Below, piece by piece: positions 31,843-38,407 of a stretch of DNA of 64,000 nucleotides. The first letter of the stretch is position 1. The number at the start of each line of letters is the position of its first letter. Origin of the DNA: Sphingopyxis sp. DBS4 (GTDB taxonomy: Bacteria; Pseudomonadota; Alphaproteobacteria; Sphingomonadales; Sphingomonadaceae); the NCBI RefSeq assembly GCF_024628865.1, contig NZ_CP102384.1, forward strand, positions 1,375,001 through 1,439,000. Reading direction: 5' to 3'. The notes under the pieces were generated by a model. The model searched no databases. It was not told the DNA's origin and worked only from the letters and a program-made list of their open reading frames with translations. A program made the position numbers and the translations under genes.

Positions 31843-34500
31843 ATGACGAAGATGGTGCATTTGTTCGGCGGCGCGGCCACCACGGCCGAGCGCTCGAAGG
31901 AATTGCTGGGCGGCAAGGGATCGAACCTTGCCGAAATGGCCTCGATCGGCCTGCCGGTTCCGCCGGGCTTTACGATCACCACCGACGTCTGCACCGCTTA
32001 TTATGCCAATGGTGAGCAATTCCCCGCCGGATTGGTCGAGGATGTCGCCGCGGGGATCGCGCATATCGAGGGCATCACCGGCAAGACATTCGGCGACGCC
32101 GCCGATCCTTTGCTCGTCTCGGTCCGTTCGGGCGCGCGCGTGTCGATGCCGGGGATGATGGACACCGTCCTCAACCTGGGGCTCAACGACAGCACCGTCG
32201 TCGGCCTGTCACAGGCGTCGGGCGACCCGCGCTTCGCGTGGGACAGCTATCGCCGCTTCATCCAGATGTACGCCGACGTCGTCATGGGCCTCGACCATGC
32301 GGCGTTCGAAGAGGCGCTGGAAATCGCGAAGGAAGACAAGGGCTTCTATCTCGACACCGAAATGACCGCCGAGGACTGGCAGGCGCTGGTCAAGGAATAT
32401 CAGGCGATCGTCGCGCGCGAGACCGGCGCGCCTTTCCCGCAGGAGCCCAAGGATCAGCTCTGGGGCGCGATCGGCGCCGTCTTCGCGAGCTGGGAAAGCG
32501 ATCGCGCGAAAGTCTATCGCCGCCTGAACTCGATCCCCGGCGAATGGGGCACCGCGGTCAATGTGCAGGCGATGGTGTTCGGCAATATGGGCGACACCTC
32601 GGCGACCGGCGTCGCCTTCACCCGCGACCCGGCGACCGGCGAGCGCGCCTGGTACGGCGAATGGCTGATCAACGCGCAGGGCGAGGACGTCGTCGCGGGC
32701 ATCCGCACCCCGCAGTATCTGACCAAGATCGCGCGCGAAAAGGCAGGCGCCAAGCCGCTCAGCATGGAAGAGGCGATGCCGGAGACTTTCGGCGAACTCG
32801 GCCGCGTCTTCGACACGCTCGAAAATCATTATCGCGACATGCAGGACATCGAGTTCACCGTCGAACGCGGGACGCTGTGGATGCTGCAAACCCGCTCGGG
32901 CAAGCGCACCGCCAAGGCAGCGCTGCGCATCGCGGTCGAAATGGCGGCCGAGGGGCTGATTACCGAGGAAGAGGCCGTCGGCCGCGTCGACCCCGGCGCG
33001 CTCGACCAGCTTCTCCACCCGACGCTCGATCCCAAGGCGCCGCGCGACGTGCTCACCAAGGGTCTTCCTGCAAGCCCCGGCGCCGCATCGGGCAAGATCA
33101 TGTTCGACGCCGACAGCGCCGAAAAGGCTGCGGGCATGGGCGAGGCGGTAATTCTCGTCCGCGTCGAGACATCGCCGGAGGACATCCACGGGATGCACGC
33201 GGCAAAGGGTATCCTGACCGCGCGCGGCGGGATGACCAGCCACGCGGCGGTCGTCGCGCGCGGTATGGGGCGCCCCTGCGTCTCGGGCGCGGGCGGGCTG
33301 GCGATCGACGGAAATGCGCGCGTGCTGCGCGTCGCGGGCCGTGAGCTGCGCGAAGGCGATATCCTCACCCTCGACGGCTCGACGGGCGAGGTGATGGCGG
33401 GCGAGGTTCCGACCTTGCTCCCCGAATTGGTCGGCGATTTCGGCACGCTGATGGGCTGGGCCGACAAGGTGCGCCGGATGAAGGTGCGCACCAACGCCGA
33501 AACCCCCGCCGACGCGCAGGTCGCGCGCGATTTCGGTGCCGAGGGCATCGGGCTTTGCCGCACCGAGCATATGTTCTTCGACGCCGCGCGGATCACCGCG
33601 GTGCGCGAAATGATCCTGGCGGAGAGCGAGGACGGCCGCCGCGCCGCGCTCGCCAAGCTGCTCCCCGAACAGCGCGGCGATTTTGCCGCGATCTTCGGCG
33701 TGATGGCGGGGCTGCCCGTGACGATCCGCCTGCTCGACCCGCCGCTGCACGAATTCCTGCCGACGCGCGAGGAGGATTTCGCCGAGGTCGCCGCTGCCGC
33801 AGGCGTCGGGATCGAGGCGCTCAAGGCGCGCGCCAACGAGCTTCATGAATTCAACCCGATGCTCGGCCACCGCGGTTGCCGCCTCGGCGTGACCTATCCC
33901 GAAATCTACGAGATGCAGGCGCGCGCGATCTTCGAGGCGGCGTGCGACGTCGCCGCCGAAACCGGCGCGGCGCCGATCCCCGAGGTGATGATCCCGCTGG
34001 TTGCGACGCGCCGCGAGTTCGACCTGATGAAGGCGGTCGTCGACACGGCGGCGAAGGCGGTGTTCGCCGAAAAGGGGCGCGAGATCGCCTATCTCGTCGG
34101 CACGATGATCGAACTGCCGCGCGCCGCGCTGATGGCGGGCGAGATCGCCCAGTCGGCCGAATTCTTCAGCTTCGGCACTAACGACCTCACCCAGACGACG
34201 ATCGGGATCAGCCGCGACGATGCGGGCCGTTTCCTGACCCAATATGTCGACAAGGGCATCTTCGTCACCGACCCCTTCGTCAGCCTCGATGTCGAGGGCG
34301 TCGGCCAGCTCATCGAGCTTGCCGCCGAACGCGGCCGGGGCGCCCGCCCGGGCATCAAACTCGGCATCTGCGGCGAGCATGGCGGCGACGCGCCGAGCAT
34401 CCATTTCTGCGAAAAGACCGGGCTCGATTACGTCAGCGCCTCGCCCTATCGCGTGCCGATCGCGCGGCTTGCAGCGGCGCAGGCGGCCTTGCAAAAATAA
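31843..34500 (+). CDS. ppdK: pyruvate, phosphate dikinase
   Basis: 885 residues from ATG 31843, which has AGGAG six bases upstream; an earlier in-frame ATG at 31792 lacks one. N-terminal ATP-grasp nucleotide-binding region (LLGGKGSNLAEMASIGLPVPPGFTI), central phosphohistidine domain with GILTARGGMTSHAAVVARGMG including the catalytic His, and a C-terminal PEP-binding barrel (GLCRTEHMFF, FGTNDLTQTT, GICGEHGGD). It interconverts pyruvate, ATP and phosphate with PEP, AMP and PPi. The glyQS-ppdK order is common in alphaproteobacteria. Confidence 0.97.
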   Translation: MTKMVHLFGGAATTAERSKELLGGKGSNLAEMASIGLPVPPGFTITTDVCTAYYANGEQFPAGLVEDVAAGIAHIEGITGKTFGDAADPLLVSVRSGARVSMPGMMDTVLNLGLNDSTVVGLSQASGDPRFAWDSYRRFIQMYADVVMGLDHAAFEEALEIAKEDKGFYLDTEMTAEDWQALVKEYQAIVARETGAPFPQEPKDQLWGAIGAVFASWESDRAKVYRRLNSIPGEWGTAVNVQAMVFGNMGDTSATGVAFTRDPATGERAWYGEWLINAQGEDVVAGIRTPQYLTKIAREKAGAKPLSMEEAMPETFGELGRVFDTLENHYRDMQDIEFTVERGTLWMLQTRSGKRTAKAALRIAVEMAAEGLITEEEAVGRVDPGALDQLLHPTLDPKAPRDVLTKGLPASPGAASGKIMFDADSAEKAAGMGEAVILVRVETSPEDIHGMHAAKGILTARGGMTSHAAVVARGMGRPCVSGAGGLAIDGNARVLRVAGRELREGDILTLDGSTGEVMAGEVPTLLPELVGDFGTLMGWADKVRRMKVRTNAETPADAQVARDFGAEGIGLCRTEHMFFDAARITAVREMILAESEDGRRAALAKLLPEQRGDFAAIFGVMAGLPVTIRLLDPPLHEFLPTREEDFAEVAAAAGVGIEALKARANELHEFNPMLGHRGCRLGVTYPEIYEMQARAIFEAACDVAAETGAAPIPEVMIPLVATRREFDLMKAVVDTAAKAVFAEKGREIAYLVGTMIELPRAALMAGEIAQSAEFFSFGTNDLTQTTIGISRDDAGRFLTQYVDKGIFVTDPFVSLDVEGVGQLIELAAERGRGARPGIKLGICGEHGGDAPSIHFCEKTGLDYVSASPYRVPIARLAAAQAALQK

Positions 34501-34508
34501 TCGCTGAA

Positions 34509-34538
34509 AGGGGGTTGCGCGACTCCGCGCTGCCCCCT
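34509..34538 (+). terminator. possible hairpin after ppdK
   Basis: AGGGGG (34509-34514) can pair with CCCCCT (34533-34538) over an 18-base loop that itself has a GCGCG-rich stem. No T run follows. It lies between ppdK and the tRNA gene. Confidence 0.35.
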
Positions 34539-34554
34539 AAAGGCACCGCTCCAC

Positions 34555-34631
34555 GCACCCGTAGCTCAGCTGGATAGAGCACCAGACTACGAATCTGGGG
34601 GTCGGACGTTCGAATCGTTCCGGGTGCGCCA
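34555..34631 (+). tRNA. tRNA-Arg (anticodon ACG)
   Basis: 77 bases with CCA encoded. Acceptor GCACCCG pairs with CGGGTGC; the D arm holds GCTC...GAGC; the anticodon stem CCAGA/TCTGG encloses loop CTACGAA, so the anticodon is ACG (read as ICG, for CGU/CGC/CGA arginine codons); the T arm has GTTCGAATC. Discriminator G precedes CCA. Confidence 0.97.
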
Positions 34632-34687
34632 TTCCCTTCCATCGATCGATATTCCCGCCTAAACGGAGCCGCGGCCAGCGATTTCGT

Positions 34688-34717
34688 GGGAACATTTTTG
34701 CGCGTGCCGCATCCAAT
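34688..34717 (+). promoter_or_regulatory. ECF-type promoter of the sigma factor gene
   Basis: GGGAAC at 34688-34693, a 15-bp spacer, then GCATCCAAT at 34709-34717, ending about 21 bp before ATG 34739. The same two boxes with the same spacing stand before folE and the ferritin gene, so the sigma factor probably transcribes its own gene. Confidence 0.72.
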
Positions 34718-34738
34718 CGCCTTTGGCGGGAGGTGTCG

Positions 34739-35470
34739 ATGGCTGATTCATCGGTGATGGCGGCAGGGGTGACGGCGGCAGGCGGGTTCGAGGCCATGGC
34801 CGACGCCGGGCTCGTCGAGCAGGTGCGGCGCGGCGAGCCGCTGGCCTTTTGTGCGGTGATGCGGCGTTACAATCAGCCGCTGTTCCGCGTCGCGCGCGCG
34901 ATCATGGCCGACGATGCGGAGGCCGAGGATGTCGTGCAGGAAAGCTATGCGCGCGCTTTTGCCGCGATCGACGGCTTTCGCGGCGAGGCGGGGCTGGGGA
35001 CCTGGCTGACGCGGATCGTGATCAACGAAAGCCGCGGCCGCCTGCGCCGCCGGCGGCCGCTGGTCGATCTCGATCAGGTCGAGCGGAGCCAGGCGGCGGG
35101 CGCGTTGATCCTCGGCTTTCCGGGCGGCAAGGTCGTCGACGATCCCGAGGCCGACGCGGCGCGCGCCGAGGTGCGGCGGCTGCTCGAACGCGCGGTCGAT
35201 GACCTGCCCGAGCCCTTCCGCCTCGTCTTCATCCTGCGCGATATCGAGGGCCGCTCGGTCGAGGAGGTCGCGGGTCTGCTCGATATCCGGGCCGAGACCG
35301 TCCGCACCCGGCTGCACCGTGCGCGCCGCCAGCTTCGCGCGGCGCTCGACGCGACGCTTGCCGACGCGCTGCGCGGCAGTTTTCCCTTCCTTGGCGCCCG
35401 GTGCGACCGGCTGGTCGACGCTGTAATGCGGCGGCTGCGGGCAGAGCGCGGCTGGCCCGATCCGCTCTAG
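34739..35470 (+). CDS. ECF-type RNA polymerase sigma factor
   Basis: 243 residues from ATG 34739 (GGAGG five bases upstream). Region 2 spans about residues 30-110 (MRRYNQPLFRVARAIMADDAEAEDVVQES with AFAAIDGFRGEAGLGTWLTRIVIN) and region 4 about 145-205 (LPEPFRLVFILRDIEGRSVEEVA with ETVRTRLHRARRQLR). A C-terminal extension of about 35 residues contains FLGARCDRLVDAVMRRL. No anti-sigma gene is adjacent. Matching promoters occur at 34688, 36141-36170 and 36182, pointing to a regulon of itself, folE and the ferritin/cytochrome pair. Confidence 0.92.
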   Translation: MADSSVMAAGVTAAGGFEAMADAGLVEQVRRGEPLAFCAVMRRYNQPLFRVARAIMADDAEAEDVVQESYARAFAAIDGFRGEAGLGTWLTRIVINESRGRLRRRRPLVDLDQVERSQAAGALILGFPGGKVVDDPEADAARAEVRRLLERAVDDLPEPFRLVFILRDIEGRSVEEVAGLLDIRAETVRTRLHRARRQLRAALDATLADALRGSFPFLGARCDRLVDAVMRRLRAERGWPDPL

Positions 35471-36114
35471 CGATCGAGTCCGAACGGGATTGCGGCGAGC
35501 AGATCACGGCGCAGGTCGGGATCTTCGCGAAAATCGCCGAGCCACGCCTTGGTCACCATTGCAACGCCCGGTTGGTTGACGCCGCGCGTCGTCATGCAGC
35601 CGTGCCGCGCCTCGACGATCACCGCGACGCCGTGCGGCTTTAGGACGGAAAACAGCGTGTCGGCGATTTGCTGGGTCAATCGTTCCTGCAATTGCAACCG
35701 GCGGCCAAAGGCGTCGACCAGCCGTGACAGCTTCGATATGCCGACGACCCGGCCGCGCGGGCGATAGGCGACATGGACGCGCCCGGTGATCGGCGCGAGA
35801 TGATGCTCGCAGGTCGAAACGAGCGGGATGTCGCGAAGCAGGACGGTGTCTTCATATCCGTTCGCCTCGTCGAAGACGCGCGCCAGATAGGCGGCGGGAT
35901 CGACGGCATAACCCGCGAACCATTCGGCATAGGCGCGCGCAACGCGGGCGGGCGTGTCGCGCAGCCCCTCGCGCGCGGGATCGTCGCCCGCGGCCGCGAT
36001 CAGGGTGCGGACGGCGGCCTCGACCGCCGCGCGTCCGGGGCGCGGTGCGGCTGCCGGATCGAGGGTTTCGCAGTCGTGGCGGTCGGCGGAGGCGGGGGGC
36101 TGCAATAAATCCAT
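35467..36114 (-). CDS. folE: GTP cyclohydrolase I (FolE)
   Basis: 215 residues from ATG 36114. Zinc ligands are in STCEHHLAPITGRVHVAY and HGCMTTRGV, and PALINDROMIC family segments such as REGLRDTPARVARAY and YRPRGRVVGISKLSRLVD are present. It makes 7,8-dihydroneopterin triphosphate from GTP, the first step to folate or tetrahydrobiopterin. It is convergent with the sigma gene (stops overlap) and divergent from the ferritin gene. Its promoter carries the same GGAAC / CATCCAAT boxes, so it may be a stress-induced copy. Confidence 0.95.
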   Translation of the reverse strand: MDLLQPPASADRHDCETLDPAAAPRPGRAAVEAAVRTLIAAAGDDPAREGLRDTPARVARAYAEWFAGYAVDPAAYLARVFDEANGYEDTVLLRDIPLVSTCEHHLAPITGRVHVAYRPRGRVVGISKLSRLVDAFGRRLQLQERLTQQIADTLFSVLKPHGVAVIVEARHGCMTTRGVNQPGVAMVTKAWLGDFREDPDLRRDLLAAIPFGLDR

Positions 36115-36140
36115 GACATATCCTTGGCGTTTCGGAGCGC

Positions 36141-36170
36141 ATTGGATGGCGCGGCGCGGGGAATGTTCCG
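36141..36170 (-). promoter_or_regulatory. ECF-type promoter of folE
   Basis: On the minus strand CGGAAC (36170-36165), 15 bp, then CCATCCAAT (36149-36141), 26 bp before the folE ATG. Box sequences and the 15-bp spacing match the sigma-gene promoter and the promoter at 36182. Confidence 0.7.
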
Positions 36171-36181
36171 GAATCTTTTTC

Positions 36182-36211
36182 GGGAACGCCGCGCCCGCAT
36201 CCGCATCGAAT
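36182..36211 (+). promoter_or_regulatory. ECF-type promoter of the ferritin_2/cytochrome c operon
   Basis: GGGAAC at 36182-36187, 15 bp, then GCATCGAAT at 36203-36211; the gene starts at 36265. Its -35 box lies 11 bp from that of the divergent folE promoter, so the two are arranged back to back. Confidence 0.7.
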
Positions 36212-36264
36212 GACCGCCATCGCGCGGCGTATTCCCGCCGCGCCGACTGCAAAGGAGGCTTTCG

Positions 36265-36852
36265 ATGATCGAACATTATAGCTCGCGCCGCGGATTGCTG
36301 CGCGCGACCGGCACTGTGGCCCTCTCCGCTGTCGCTATCGGGATATTGGGCGACGCGCCGGCGCTGGCCCGCGCGGCGGGAAAGGAACCGGGAGGCGCCG
36401 CCAATGCCGGCGACATCGACATATTGAACGTCGCGCTCGGGCTCGAACATGAAGCGATCGAGGCGTATCAGATCGGTGCCGAAAGCGGCCTGCTGCAAAA
36501 GCCCGTGCTCGACCTTGCGCTGGTCTTCCAGGGCCAGCACAAGGGGCACCGCGATGCGCTCGCCGGCGCGATTGGCCAACTCGGCGGCAAGCCGGTCCAG
36601 CCCAAGTCGCGCGCCGACTATATGACCAGCCTCAACATCGCCGCGATCAAGACCCAGGCCGATATCCTGCGCCTCGCGCAGGCACACGAACTGGGGGCGG
36701 CCAACGCCTATATCGGCGTCATGCCGTCGCTCGGCGGCAAGGACCTCGCGCAGGTCTGCGCCAGGATCGCCGCCGACGAGGCCGCGCATTGGTCGCTGCT
36801 GACGTCGGCGCTCGGCGAAGCGCTGCCGCAGTCCGCCTTCATGTTCGGTTGA
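36265..36852 (+). CDS. ferritin-like (Ferritin_2) Tat-exported protein
   Basis: 195 residues. It begins MIEHYSSRRGLLRATGTVALSAVAIG, a Tat signal with SRRGLLR. The mature part is a four-helix bundle with ILNVALGLEHEAIEAYQ, QGQHKGHRDALAGAI, AQAHELGAANAYIG and AADEAAHWSLL, each helix supplying Glu/His pairs expected of a di-metal site (PF13668). It should act in the periplasm, perhaps in iron or peroxide handling. AAGGAGG lies just upstream of the start. It is co-transcribed with the cytochrome c gene three bases downstream. Confidence 0.85.
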   Translation: MIEHYSSRRGLLRATGTVALSAVAIGILGDAPALARAAGKEPGGAANAGDIDILNVALGLEHEAIEAYQIGAESGLLQKPVLDLALVFQGQHKGHRDALAGAIGQLGGKPVQPKSRADYMTSLNIAAIKTQADILRLAQAHELGAANAYIGVMPSLGGKDLAQVCARIAADEAAHWSLLTSALGEALPQSAFMFG

Positions 36853-36855
36853 GCC

Positions 36856-37239
36856 ATGCGGTGGGGACTGGAGATAGCCGCGGGCGTCTGGCTGTTGGCC
36901 GCCGGTGCGATGACCGCGGCGGTCGCGCTGGCGCCGAGCGGTGACCCCGCGCGCGGCGCCAAGGCCTATGCCGCCAATTGCGGAAGTTGTCACTCGCTCG
37001 ACGCCAACCGCGTCGGCCCGGCGCACCGCGGCGTTTACGGCCGCAAGGCGGGAACGGCGCGCGGCTACGCCTATTCGCCCGCGATGCGCGGCGCGCGGAT
37101 CGTCTGGAACGAGGCGACGCTCGATCGCTTCCTGCAGAATCCGCAAGCGATGGTGCCGGGCACGCGAATGGGCTTTCGTGTGCCCGATCCCGCCCGCCGT
37201 GCCGACGTGATCGCCTATCTGCGGCAGCAGAGTCGATAG
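36856..37239 (+). CDS. class I cytochrome c, membrane-anchored or secreted
   Basis: 127 residues. An N-terminal hydrophobic segment (GLEIAAGVWLLAAGAMTAAVAL) acts as signal or anchor. The heme motif CGSCH is at about residues 42-46, preceded by AKAYAANCGSC, and the Met ligand is probably in MVPGTRMGFRVPDP, as in mitochondrial-type c cytochromes. It would shuttle electrons in the periplasm, possibly for the ferritin-like protein encoded just upstream; this partnership is inference from operon position. Confidence 0.9.
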   Translation: MRWGLEIAAGVWLLAAGAMTAAVALAPSGDPARGAKAYAANCGSCHSLDANRVGPAHRGVYGRKAGTARGYAYSPAMRGARIVWNEATLDRFLQNPQAMVPGTRMGFRVPDPARRADVIAYLRQQSR

Positions 37240-37435
37240 GCGGCGGTGGATAAGGGCTGGCCGTCGCTGCGGGCGGACGAAGATCTGCCGGCGACATCGT
37301 GGCCGGTCCGGGCGGCGAGCCTCGATCCACCCCCTGCATCGAGGTCTCGTCGCCGATCGCCCCGCGCATAGCTATGGCGATTGCATCGGCCGATGCGATG
37401 CGACATGCCCTCTCGAGCAAGAGCAAGGGAGAGTC
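37240..37435. other. non-coding gap before glucokinase
   Basis: About 200 bp, GC-rich, with no supported gene, repeat or clear promoter box. Only the AAGGGAG ribosome site of glk at its end is recognisable. Confidence 0.4.
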
Positions 37436-38407
37436 ATGAGCGAAGCCATCGTCACGGTCGATATCGGCGGTACCCATGCGCGCTTCGCGATCGCCGAGGT
37501 CGGAGGCGGCCGGGTTATCGCCCTCGGGCCGGAAGCGACGCTGCATACGAAGGATCATGCGAGCTTTCAGACCGCGTGGCAGGATTTCGAGCGCCGGCAG
37601 GGTGGCGCGCTGCCGCGCGCGGTCGCGATCGCTATCGCCGGGCCGACGCGCGGCGAGATCATCCGCTTCACCAACAACCCGTGGATCATCCGCCCGGCGC
37701 TGATCGGCGAAAAACTCAACGTCGATCGCTATGCGCTGGTGAATGATTTCGAGGCGGTGGGGCACGCGGTCGCGCAGGCCGGCGAAGCCTATTTCGAGCG
37801 ATTGACCGGCCCCGACGAACCGTTGCCCGCCGCGGGCACGATCAGCATCATCGGCCCCGGCACCGGGCTCGGCGTCGCGCATGTGTGGCGCGACGGCGCC
37901 GACTATCGCGTCCAGGCGACCGAGGGCGGGCATATCGACTTCGCGCCGCTCGACAGCATCGAGGATGCGATCCTCGCGCGGCTGCGGACGCGCCATCGCC
38001 GCGTGTCGGTCGAACGTGTCGTTTCGGGGCCGGGCATCGTCGACATTTACGAAACGCTGGCGAGCATGGAGGGACGCGCGATCACCCCGCTCGACGACCG
38101 CACCATCTGGACGCGCGCGATGAGCGGCGAGGATGCGCTCGCCGCCGCTGCCGCCGACCGCTTCTGCCTGTCGCTCGGCAGCGTCGCGGGCGACCTCGCG
38201 CTCGCGCAGGGAGCGAGCGGGGTCGTGATCGCGGGCGGTCTTGGCCTCCGCATCCGCGACCAGCTCGTGCGCTCGGGTTTCCCCGAACGCTTCGTCGCCA
38301 AGGGGCGGTTCGAGAATTTCATGGCGGCGCTGCCGGTCAAGCTGATCACCCACCCGCAGCCCGGCCTGTTCGGCGCGGCAGCGGCGTTCGCGCGCCGCTA
38401 CGCCTGA
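37436..38407 (+). CDS. glk: glucokinase (proteobacterial Glk family)
   Basis: 323 residues with SD AAGGGAG. It starts MSEAIVTVDIGGTHARFAIAEV (phosphate-1 motif DIGGTHARF), has AIAGPTRGEIIRFTNNPW, the catalytic aspartate in LVNDFEAVGHA, IGPGTGLGVAHV, TEGGHIDFAPLD and VIAGGLGLRI. This is the PF02685 type that uses ATP to make glucose-6-phosphate in the cytoplasm. No Entner-Doudoroff genes are next to it; the following gene belongs to polyamine breakdown. Confidence 0.94.
   Translation: MSEAIVTVDIGGTHARFAIAEVGGGRVIALGPEATLHTKDHASFQTAWQDFERRQGGALPRAVAIAIAGPTRGEIIRFTNNPWIIRPALIGEKLNVDRYALVNDFEAVGHAVAQAGEAYFERLTGPDEPLPAAGTISIIGPGTGLGVAHVWRDGADYRVQATEGGHIDFAPLDSIEDAILARLRTRHRRVSVERVVSGPGIVDIYETLASMEGRAITPLDDRTIWTRAMSGEDALAAAAADRFCLSLGSVAGDLALAQGASGVVIAGGLGLRIRDQLVRSGFPERFVAKGRFENFMAALPVKLITHPQPGLFGAAAAFARRYA

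Follow-up and report, generated by a model that had tools for sequence, protein, structure and literature searches.

ECF41 sigma factors carry a SnoaL-like C-terminal domain, and those of ECF44 and ECF238 (CorE) carry a cysteine-rich one. A TPR C-terminal domain has also been described among extension-bearing ECFs, and a 2021 review calls the control of ECFs without a neighbouring anti-sigma open (PMC8103513). In S. meliloti, the ECF26 sigma factors RpoE1 and RpoE4 are reported to control tiny regulons made up of their own genes and of genes for sulfite oxidase, cytochrome c and pseudoazurin (PMC6180224, PMC3511301). All four ECF26 members of this species (RpoE1, RpoE3, RpoE4 and RpoE6) are described with a downstream anti-sigma and with promoters that have a GGAATA -35 box and a GT -10 box (PMC6180224). 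As for GTP cyclohydrolase I, folE is reported to be light-induced in P. putida, as are folM and folE in P. mendocina, where they lie in one predicted operon with folX (PMC9758184). Two other systems were considered and set aside: Bradyrhizobium EcfQ/EcfF, in which EcfQ belongs to ECF33 and no common target motif is reported (PMC3420878), and P. syringae PSPTO_1043, for which a CGTA-type motif is given (PMC5507510).

The locus described here lies within a 64,000-nucleotide stretch of DNA, the whole of which is referred to as the window, and comprises four genes and three copies of a spaced element (Table 1). These elements are, with high probability, the cognate promoters of the adjoining ECF sigma factor, which is predicted to amplify itself and to drive a folE branch and a ferritin-like/cytochrome branch. 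The gene identities originally read from the letters alone (a sigma factor, GTP cyclohydrolase I, a ferritin_2 protein and a cytochrome c) were confirmed with Pfam and NCBIfam. The sigma factor matches NF008888 with 265.4 bits (cut-off 204) over model positions 13-229 of 231, and its matches to PF04542 (Sigma70_r2), PF08281 (Sigma70_r4_2) and TIGR02937 are all over cut-off; with Sigma70 regions 2 and 4 only, it falls among the ECF sigma factors. It is the only one of 16 matches to the NF008888 model in its genome that exceeds the cut-off, and the other 15 stop at model position 217 or earlier. Upstream of the sigma gene are a tRNA-Arg gene (34555-34631) and a pyruvate phosphate dikinase gene, and its downstream neighbour is folE, which is convergent. 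Because these are its identified neighbours, no anti-sigma gene adjoins the sigma gene in the window. The ferritin-like gene and the cytochrome c gene are separated by 3 bases and are probably co-transcribed, with glucokinase encoded downstream of the latter. The genome has a second folE (C1:2800648-2801178, L149), and the folE of the window is therefore probably a stress-dedicated copy.

Table 1. Elements and genes of the locus, with positions in the window.
Feature	Position	Strand	Basis
Sigma-gene promoter element (predicted), GGGAAC-N15-GCATCCAAT	34688-34717	+	Exact match; element also precedes sigma gene or operon in relatives
folE promoter element (predicted), CGGAAC-N15-CCATCCAAT	36141-36170	-	Exact match
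Promoter element of ferritin-like/cytochrome c pair (predicted), GGGAAC-N15-GCATCGAAT	36182-36211	+	Exact match
ECF sigma factor, 243 aa, NF008888 (PRK11922) family, C-terminal extension with Cys222	34739-35470	+	NCBIfam, Pfam
folE, GTP cyclohydrolase I, 215 aa	35467-36114	-	PF01227 233 bits; TIGR00063 over cut-off
Exported ferritin-like protein (Ferritin_2), 195 aa, twin-arginine motif	36265-36852	+	PF13668 89.8 bits, cut-off 24.7
c-type cytochrome, 127 aa	36856-37239	+	PF00034 41.7 bits; CGSCH haem motif

The sequence-only reading had placed three GGAAC-N15-SCATCSAAT sites at this locus, and each was recovered exactly, at the same position and on the same strand. All three have a gene start downstream on their own strand with a purine-rich ribosome-binding site, as read from the sequence, and the distance from the box to the ATG is 22 bases for the sigma gene (34739), 27 for folE (36114, minus strand) and 54 for the ferritin-like gene (36265). 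The folE and ferritin elements (36141-36211) are divergent, with 11 bases between them. When up to three mismatches are allowed, the window contains 11 matches versus 15.8 expected, which is no enrichment, and matches with zero mismatches occur only at the three sites. In five relatives (L118, L119, L120, L195 and L198), the 30-base elements of folE and DUF4142 abut exactly, one of the two in L120 having two mismatches; as a result, their -35 boxes make up an inverted repeat at which binding of one polymerase might shut out a second.

The whole-genome scan that had been proposed for the element returned only three matches in 4,906,051 bases, all at this locus and each before a gene start, with none for the reversed-pattern control. 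A first-order Markov model estimated from the window puts the chance expectation at 0.31 matches in a whole genome and 0.004 in 64 kb. Up to two mismatches gave 23 further matches in this genome and 8 in all for the reversed control. Most of the 23 look like background, since 16 of them lie within codon-biased reading frames, as judged by a codon-bias heuristic instead of annotation, and a larger regulon built on two-mismatch sites was rejected for this reason. A search with spacers of 15-17 and CRTCNAAT added one match, with a spacer of 15 (C1:262066-262094, minus strand; L199). The predicted regulon is compact and local, with no clear promoter in the genome besides these three.

Across genomes, the strict form of the element (GGGAAC-N16-CATCNAAT) was present in 16 of 119 genomes of the genus and order, with 29 matches versus 3 for the reversed control. 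A family sigma gene adjoins the element in 11 of these 16, and the remaining 5 have single matches with no sigma, folE or partner gene closer than 1.5 kb. In the subset of 60 genomes with a sigma search (family sigma at E below 1e-40), the strict element occurs in 7 of 8 genomes with the family sigma and in 2 of 52 without it, so the proposed scan of related genomes shows an element that tracks the family sigma. In a class-wide sample of 385 genomes, 11 hold a sigma above the family cut-off; the strict element lies beside the sigma gene in 3 of them, and a form with spacer 16 and one mismatch in 6. Thirteen scattered strict matches were also seen in 12 genomes of this sample (reversed control, 5), one of which, G119, is a family genome that has its match on another contig. 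Five of the family genomes in the class are without the element: by eye, related boxes are found in G119 (CATCTATT), G425 (CATCATAG) and G460 (CGTCTAAC), and only degenerate boxes near sigma in G304 and G429. Overall, the element at no more than one mismatch is present at 20 of 29 family loci versus none of 78 other ECF-like loci (Fisher p 4e-15), although these others (22 lower-scoring genus or order loci, 47 distant loci from named genomes, 7 paralogues and 2 sub-cut-off class loci) were separated from the family on score or identity, not all of them with the family model, and may include some distant members. Not every family sigma is accompanied by the element: it is missing at one mismatch from 9 of the 29 family loci, and in the more diverged members the boxes read CGTC or CATCATA, or nothing clear is seen.

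This distribution bears on whether the element is read by some other ECF sigma factor, for instance EcfG of the general stress response, with the neighbouring sigma gene merely a target. The -10 box of EcfG is GTT, not CATC, and control by EcfG should give many sites, when only three exist here. Given also the contrast between 7 of 8 and 2 of 52 genomes, and the absence of the element from all 78 other ECF-like loci, we consider recognition by another ECF very improbable, even though many ECF promoters share the -35 core GGAAC, among them the published S. meliloti rpoE5 promoter (PMC6180224), and 15 further proteins of the genome match the sigma family model more weakly.

The character of the element was assessed on a collection of sites from 24 family loci, which were scanned with a spacer of 16 and up to one mismatch; 23 loci gave 45 sites, 44 of them distinct. 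The -35 box is GGGAAC, mostly followed by CT or AT, and the -10 box is CATCSAAT, with a conservation that is partly by construction because the sites were picked at no more than one mismatch. Information in the spacer is at most 0.8 bits in 15 of 16 columns, and a T at its second column, which is absent from the scan pattern, reaches 1.4 bits and gives a longer -35 box, GGGAACCT. GGAAC and ATC are 17 bases apart, which is the usual geometry of sigmaE-type promoters, in which G is usual at the A position of CATC. The great majority of the sites (41 of 45) lie 9-71 bases 5' of a point where a recognised target on their own strand could start, namely folE (13), sigma (11), DUF4142 (8), Ferritin_2 (5) and DUF5602/TTHB210-like (4). 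Two of the four leftover sites are in L185, and the other two, in L191 and L200, are GATC forms that may be background. In Microvirga sp. VF16 and Brevundimonas viscosa, separate elements precede the sigma gene and the targets.

Long and specific boxes, and a divergent arrangement with a -35 inverted repeat in five relatives, might also be expected if a conventional regulator bound there and co-ordinated the three genes. However, the element is asymmetric, with two boxes at a 16-17 base spacing and a freely varying spacer, it points at a nearby target start in 41 of 45 cases, and no sigma-70-like promoter was found in 34400-37500; this explanation is therefore very improbable. That the three sites, all within 1.5 kb, are alike by chance, or because an intergenic stretch was recently duplicated, is barely credible and already contradicted by the comparative data, since three were found where 0.31 are expected per genome, their spacers and flanks differ, and sites persist where the sigma factor is only 45-66% identical. 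Taken together, the own-genome scan, the 60 genomes and the 41 of 45 sites support the view, first put forward in the sequence-only reading, that the sigma factor would control itself, GTP cyclohydrolase I and the ferritin-cytochrome pair.

As a general rule for the family, this set of targets is too narrow. The 33 family loci tabulated are related to one another and are not random draws, and partner classes were assigned by domain search on representatives and by blastp to those for the rest, with export read by eye from N-terminal sequences except where noted. The partners were Ferritin_2 with cytochrome c at 11 loci, DUF4142 with cupredoxin at 12 and DUF5602/TTHB210-like with cupredoxin at 5, so that 28 of 33 sigma genes are accompanied by one of these proteins and a cytochrome c or cupredoxin. 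Ferritin_2 alone was found once, an unclassified, apparently exported protein once, and no recognised partner three times (once on a short contig); folE adjoins the sigma gene at 14 of the 33. The predicted regulon of sigma, folE and a ferritin-cytochrome pair thus suits the window, but the exported partner is not always ferritin-cytochrome elsewhere, and the target rule, as predicted from the comparison, is broader. Individual loci illustrate this variation: Microvirga sp. VF16 has its second element before DUF5602-plastocyanin, Rhizobium sp. K102 has the gene order DUF4142-cupredoxin-sigma, R. etli IE4803 has a ferritin-like gene after sigma and no element found with the pattern used, and the Devosia locus L063 has the element, although blastp recognised no partner there. 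The partner label changes at least 8 times on a quick tree and folE at least 5 times, counts that are rough because many branches are weak. Plasmid contexts amount to four records from among the matches listed (30 of 114). Two family sigma genes (L115 and L116) are present on one contig, G057:C13, about 31 kb apart and with different neighbours.

One family locus, L185, is informative about folE. Opposite folE, and with the element in front, it has a short-chain dehydrogenase gene (L185:3443-4195, minus strand) whose product matches PRK09134 with 366.5 bits (over the cut-off of 281) and the pteridine reductase model PRK09135 with 200.2 bits (under the cut-off of 288). The protein contains TGGAVRIG, which fits TGX3RXG, reported as a pteridine reductase signature (PMC13259868). 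The position of this pteridine-reductase-like gene opposite folE suggests that folE may serve reduced-pterin production. In the genome of the window, no PRK09134 match exceeds the cut-off, and the best one lies below it, away from the window. L185 also has a further element (L185:383-412, minus strand), 32 bases before a frame that by eye resembles a Rieske iron-sulfur protein. An apparently exported protein is encoded at L185:6195-6860 (plus strand), about 50 bases after a two-mismatch element; it has no Pfam or NCBIfam match and is possibly another cargo type.

The ferritin-like protein of the window belongs to Ferritin_2 by Pfam, and its closest named homologue, from Sphingopyxis lindanitolerans, is 86% identical, which makes Sphingopyxis the probable genus of the window. 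All 28 aligned homologues keep R8 and R9 of its twin-arginine motif. The modelled protein is a four-helix bundle for which the best structure match is tardigrade RvY_06210, followed by Rv2844 and bacterioferritins. RvY_06210 has been described as a metabolite phosphatase (FeMP) with a dinuclear site formed by Glu51, Glu90, His93, Glu132, Asp135 and Asp162, of which Glu90 binds both metals (PMC11616004). The counterparts of Glu51, His93, Glu132 and Asp162 are E61, H95, E142 and D171 (numbers transferred by eye), which are invariant in all 28 homologues. By eye, the reported Glu90 aligns with an invariant His92, and Asp135 with A145; because of these two replacements, the chemistry of the ferritin-like protein may differ from that of the FeMP phosphatase.

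The C-terminal tail of the sigma factor is conserved as well. Cys222 is present in 33 of 33 family sigmas and F217 in 31 of 33, and the tail motif F-x-G-x-x-C in 118 of the 120 close homologues listed, 83 of which have two cysteines in total. In the AlphaFold model (mean pLDDT 85.8, pTM 0.63), residues 220-237 form an ordered helix (pLDDT about 91), which is placed only tentatively since residues 211-220 are less sure (pLDDT 64). The model fits the sigmaE and AlgU structures, a fit that is uninformative on the tail. The helix with Cys222 is, at a guess, a candidate built-in sensor.

The most probable sequence of events is that the active sigma factor recognises the three promoters directly and amplifies its own gene. 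In the cytoplasmic branch, a stress-dedicated second GTP cyclohydrolase I would supply more pterin, and in the exported branch, a metal-binding ferritin-like protein would act with a small periplasmic electron carrier. Sigma activity would be released without a neighbouring anti-sigma, possibly through the Cys222 tail. The signal may be redox or photo-oxidative stress, which is favoured because folE and folM are light-responsive in Pseudomonas and the targets are redox proteins. A Brucella ECF is reportedly linked to hypochlorous acid. Arsenic was considered as a signal because a Brevundimonas folE is reported to have conferred arsenic resistance (PMC9144182), and general stress control was also considered (PMC6599016, PMC6472365); a Sphingopyxis ECF sigma, SGRAN_1161, is reported to be induced anaerobically (PMC6472365). 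A more far-reaching proposal, which we regard as speculative and rather unlikely, is that the sigma factor by itself senses redox state or metal in the cytoplasm, as a one-component system in which the tail helix with the F-x-G-x-x-C motif keeps it inactive or active depending on the state of Cys222, so that no anti-sigma is needed. The family would then be a plug-in controller, coupled to pterin production, in which the promoter code is kept and lineages swap the exported cargo, which is either an electron carrier with Ferritin_2 or DUF4142 or a cupredoxin with DUF5602.

The locus is thus best described as a recurrent, predicted sigma-promoter-cargo module, and as an ECF regulon it is of a known kind. 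In open-licence PMC literature, among the matches listed by title and abstract excerpt, a regulon that links an ECF sigma to folE, to ferritin-like, DUF4142 or cupredoxin genes, or to this motif was not found described, nor were the promoter code, the cargo rule and the anti-sigma-free tail. With these, the NF008888 family, named only as sigma in NCBIfam, gains a putative promoter code, target rule and sensing element, each of which can be put to the test because the group can be cultured. The module offers a compact three-promoter case for ECFs without a neighbouring anti-sigma, and a linked role is proposed for exported Ferritin_2 and DUF4142 proteins, two groups that are poorly understood, with their small electron carriers, and for a second folE.

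Compared with known systems, the sigma factor matches NF008888 (PRK11922) over near its full length, including the C-terminal part, and the description of that family is RNA polymerase sigma factor only, without targets or promoter. The ferritin-like protein has its Pfam family (PF13668) and fold in common with the FeMP of tardigrades and Deinococcus, described as stress-linked; tardigrade FeMP is reported with an N-terminal secretory signal, and the window's protein is likewise exported, judging by its motif. The Pseudomonas light regulons (LitR, short LOV photoreceptors) resemble the family in folE and in the pteridine-reductase-like gene opposite folE in L185, whereas they are described with a LitR-type repressor and not an ECF sigma, and the parts of the source available contain no ferritin-cytochrome branch. 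ECF41, ECF42 and ECF44/238 resemble the window's sigma in that region 4 is followed by an extension and no anti-sigma gene lies next to them; extension-bearing ECFs are discussed in PMC8103513. Unlike them, its only Pfam domains are sigma regions, with no SnoaL-like or TPR domain, and its tail has one invariant cysteine instead of a cysteine-rich domain. The reported ECF26 arrangement also differs, since convergent folE occupies the place directly downstream where an anti-sigma would be, and the boxes are GGGAAC or CGGAAC with CATCSAAT, not GGAATA with GT. Although its targets are not sulfite oxidases, the sigma factor is, like RpoE1 and RpoE4 as published, an alphaproteobacterial ECF that appears to control itself and a set of periplasmic redox proteins.
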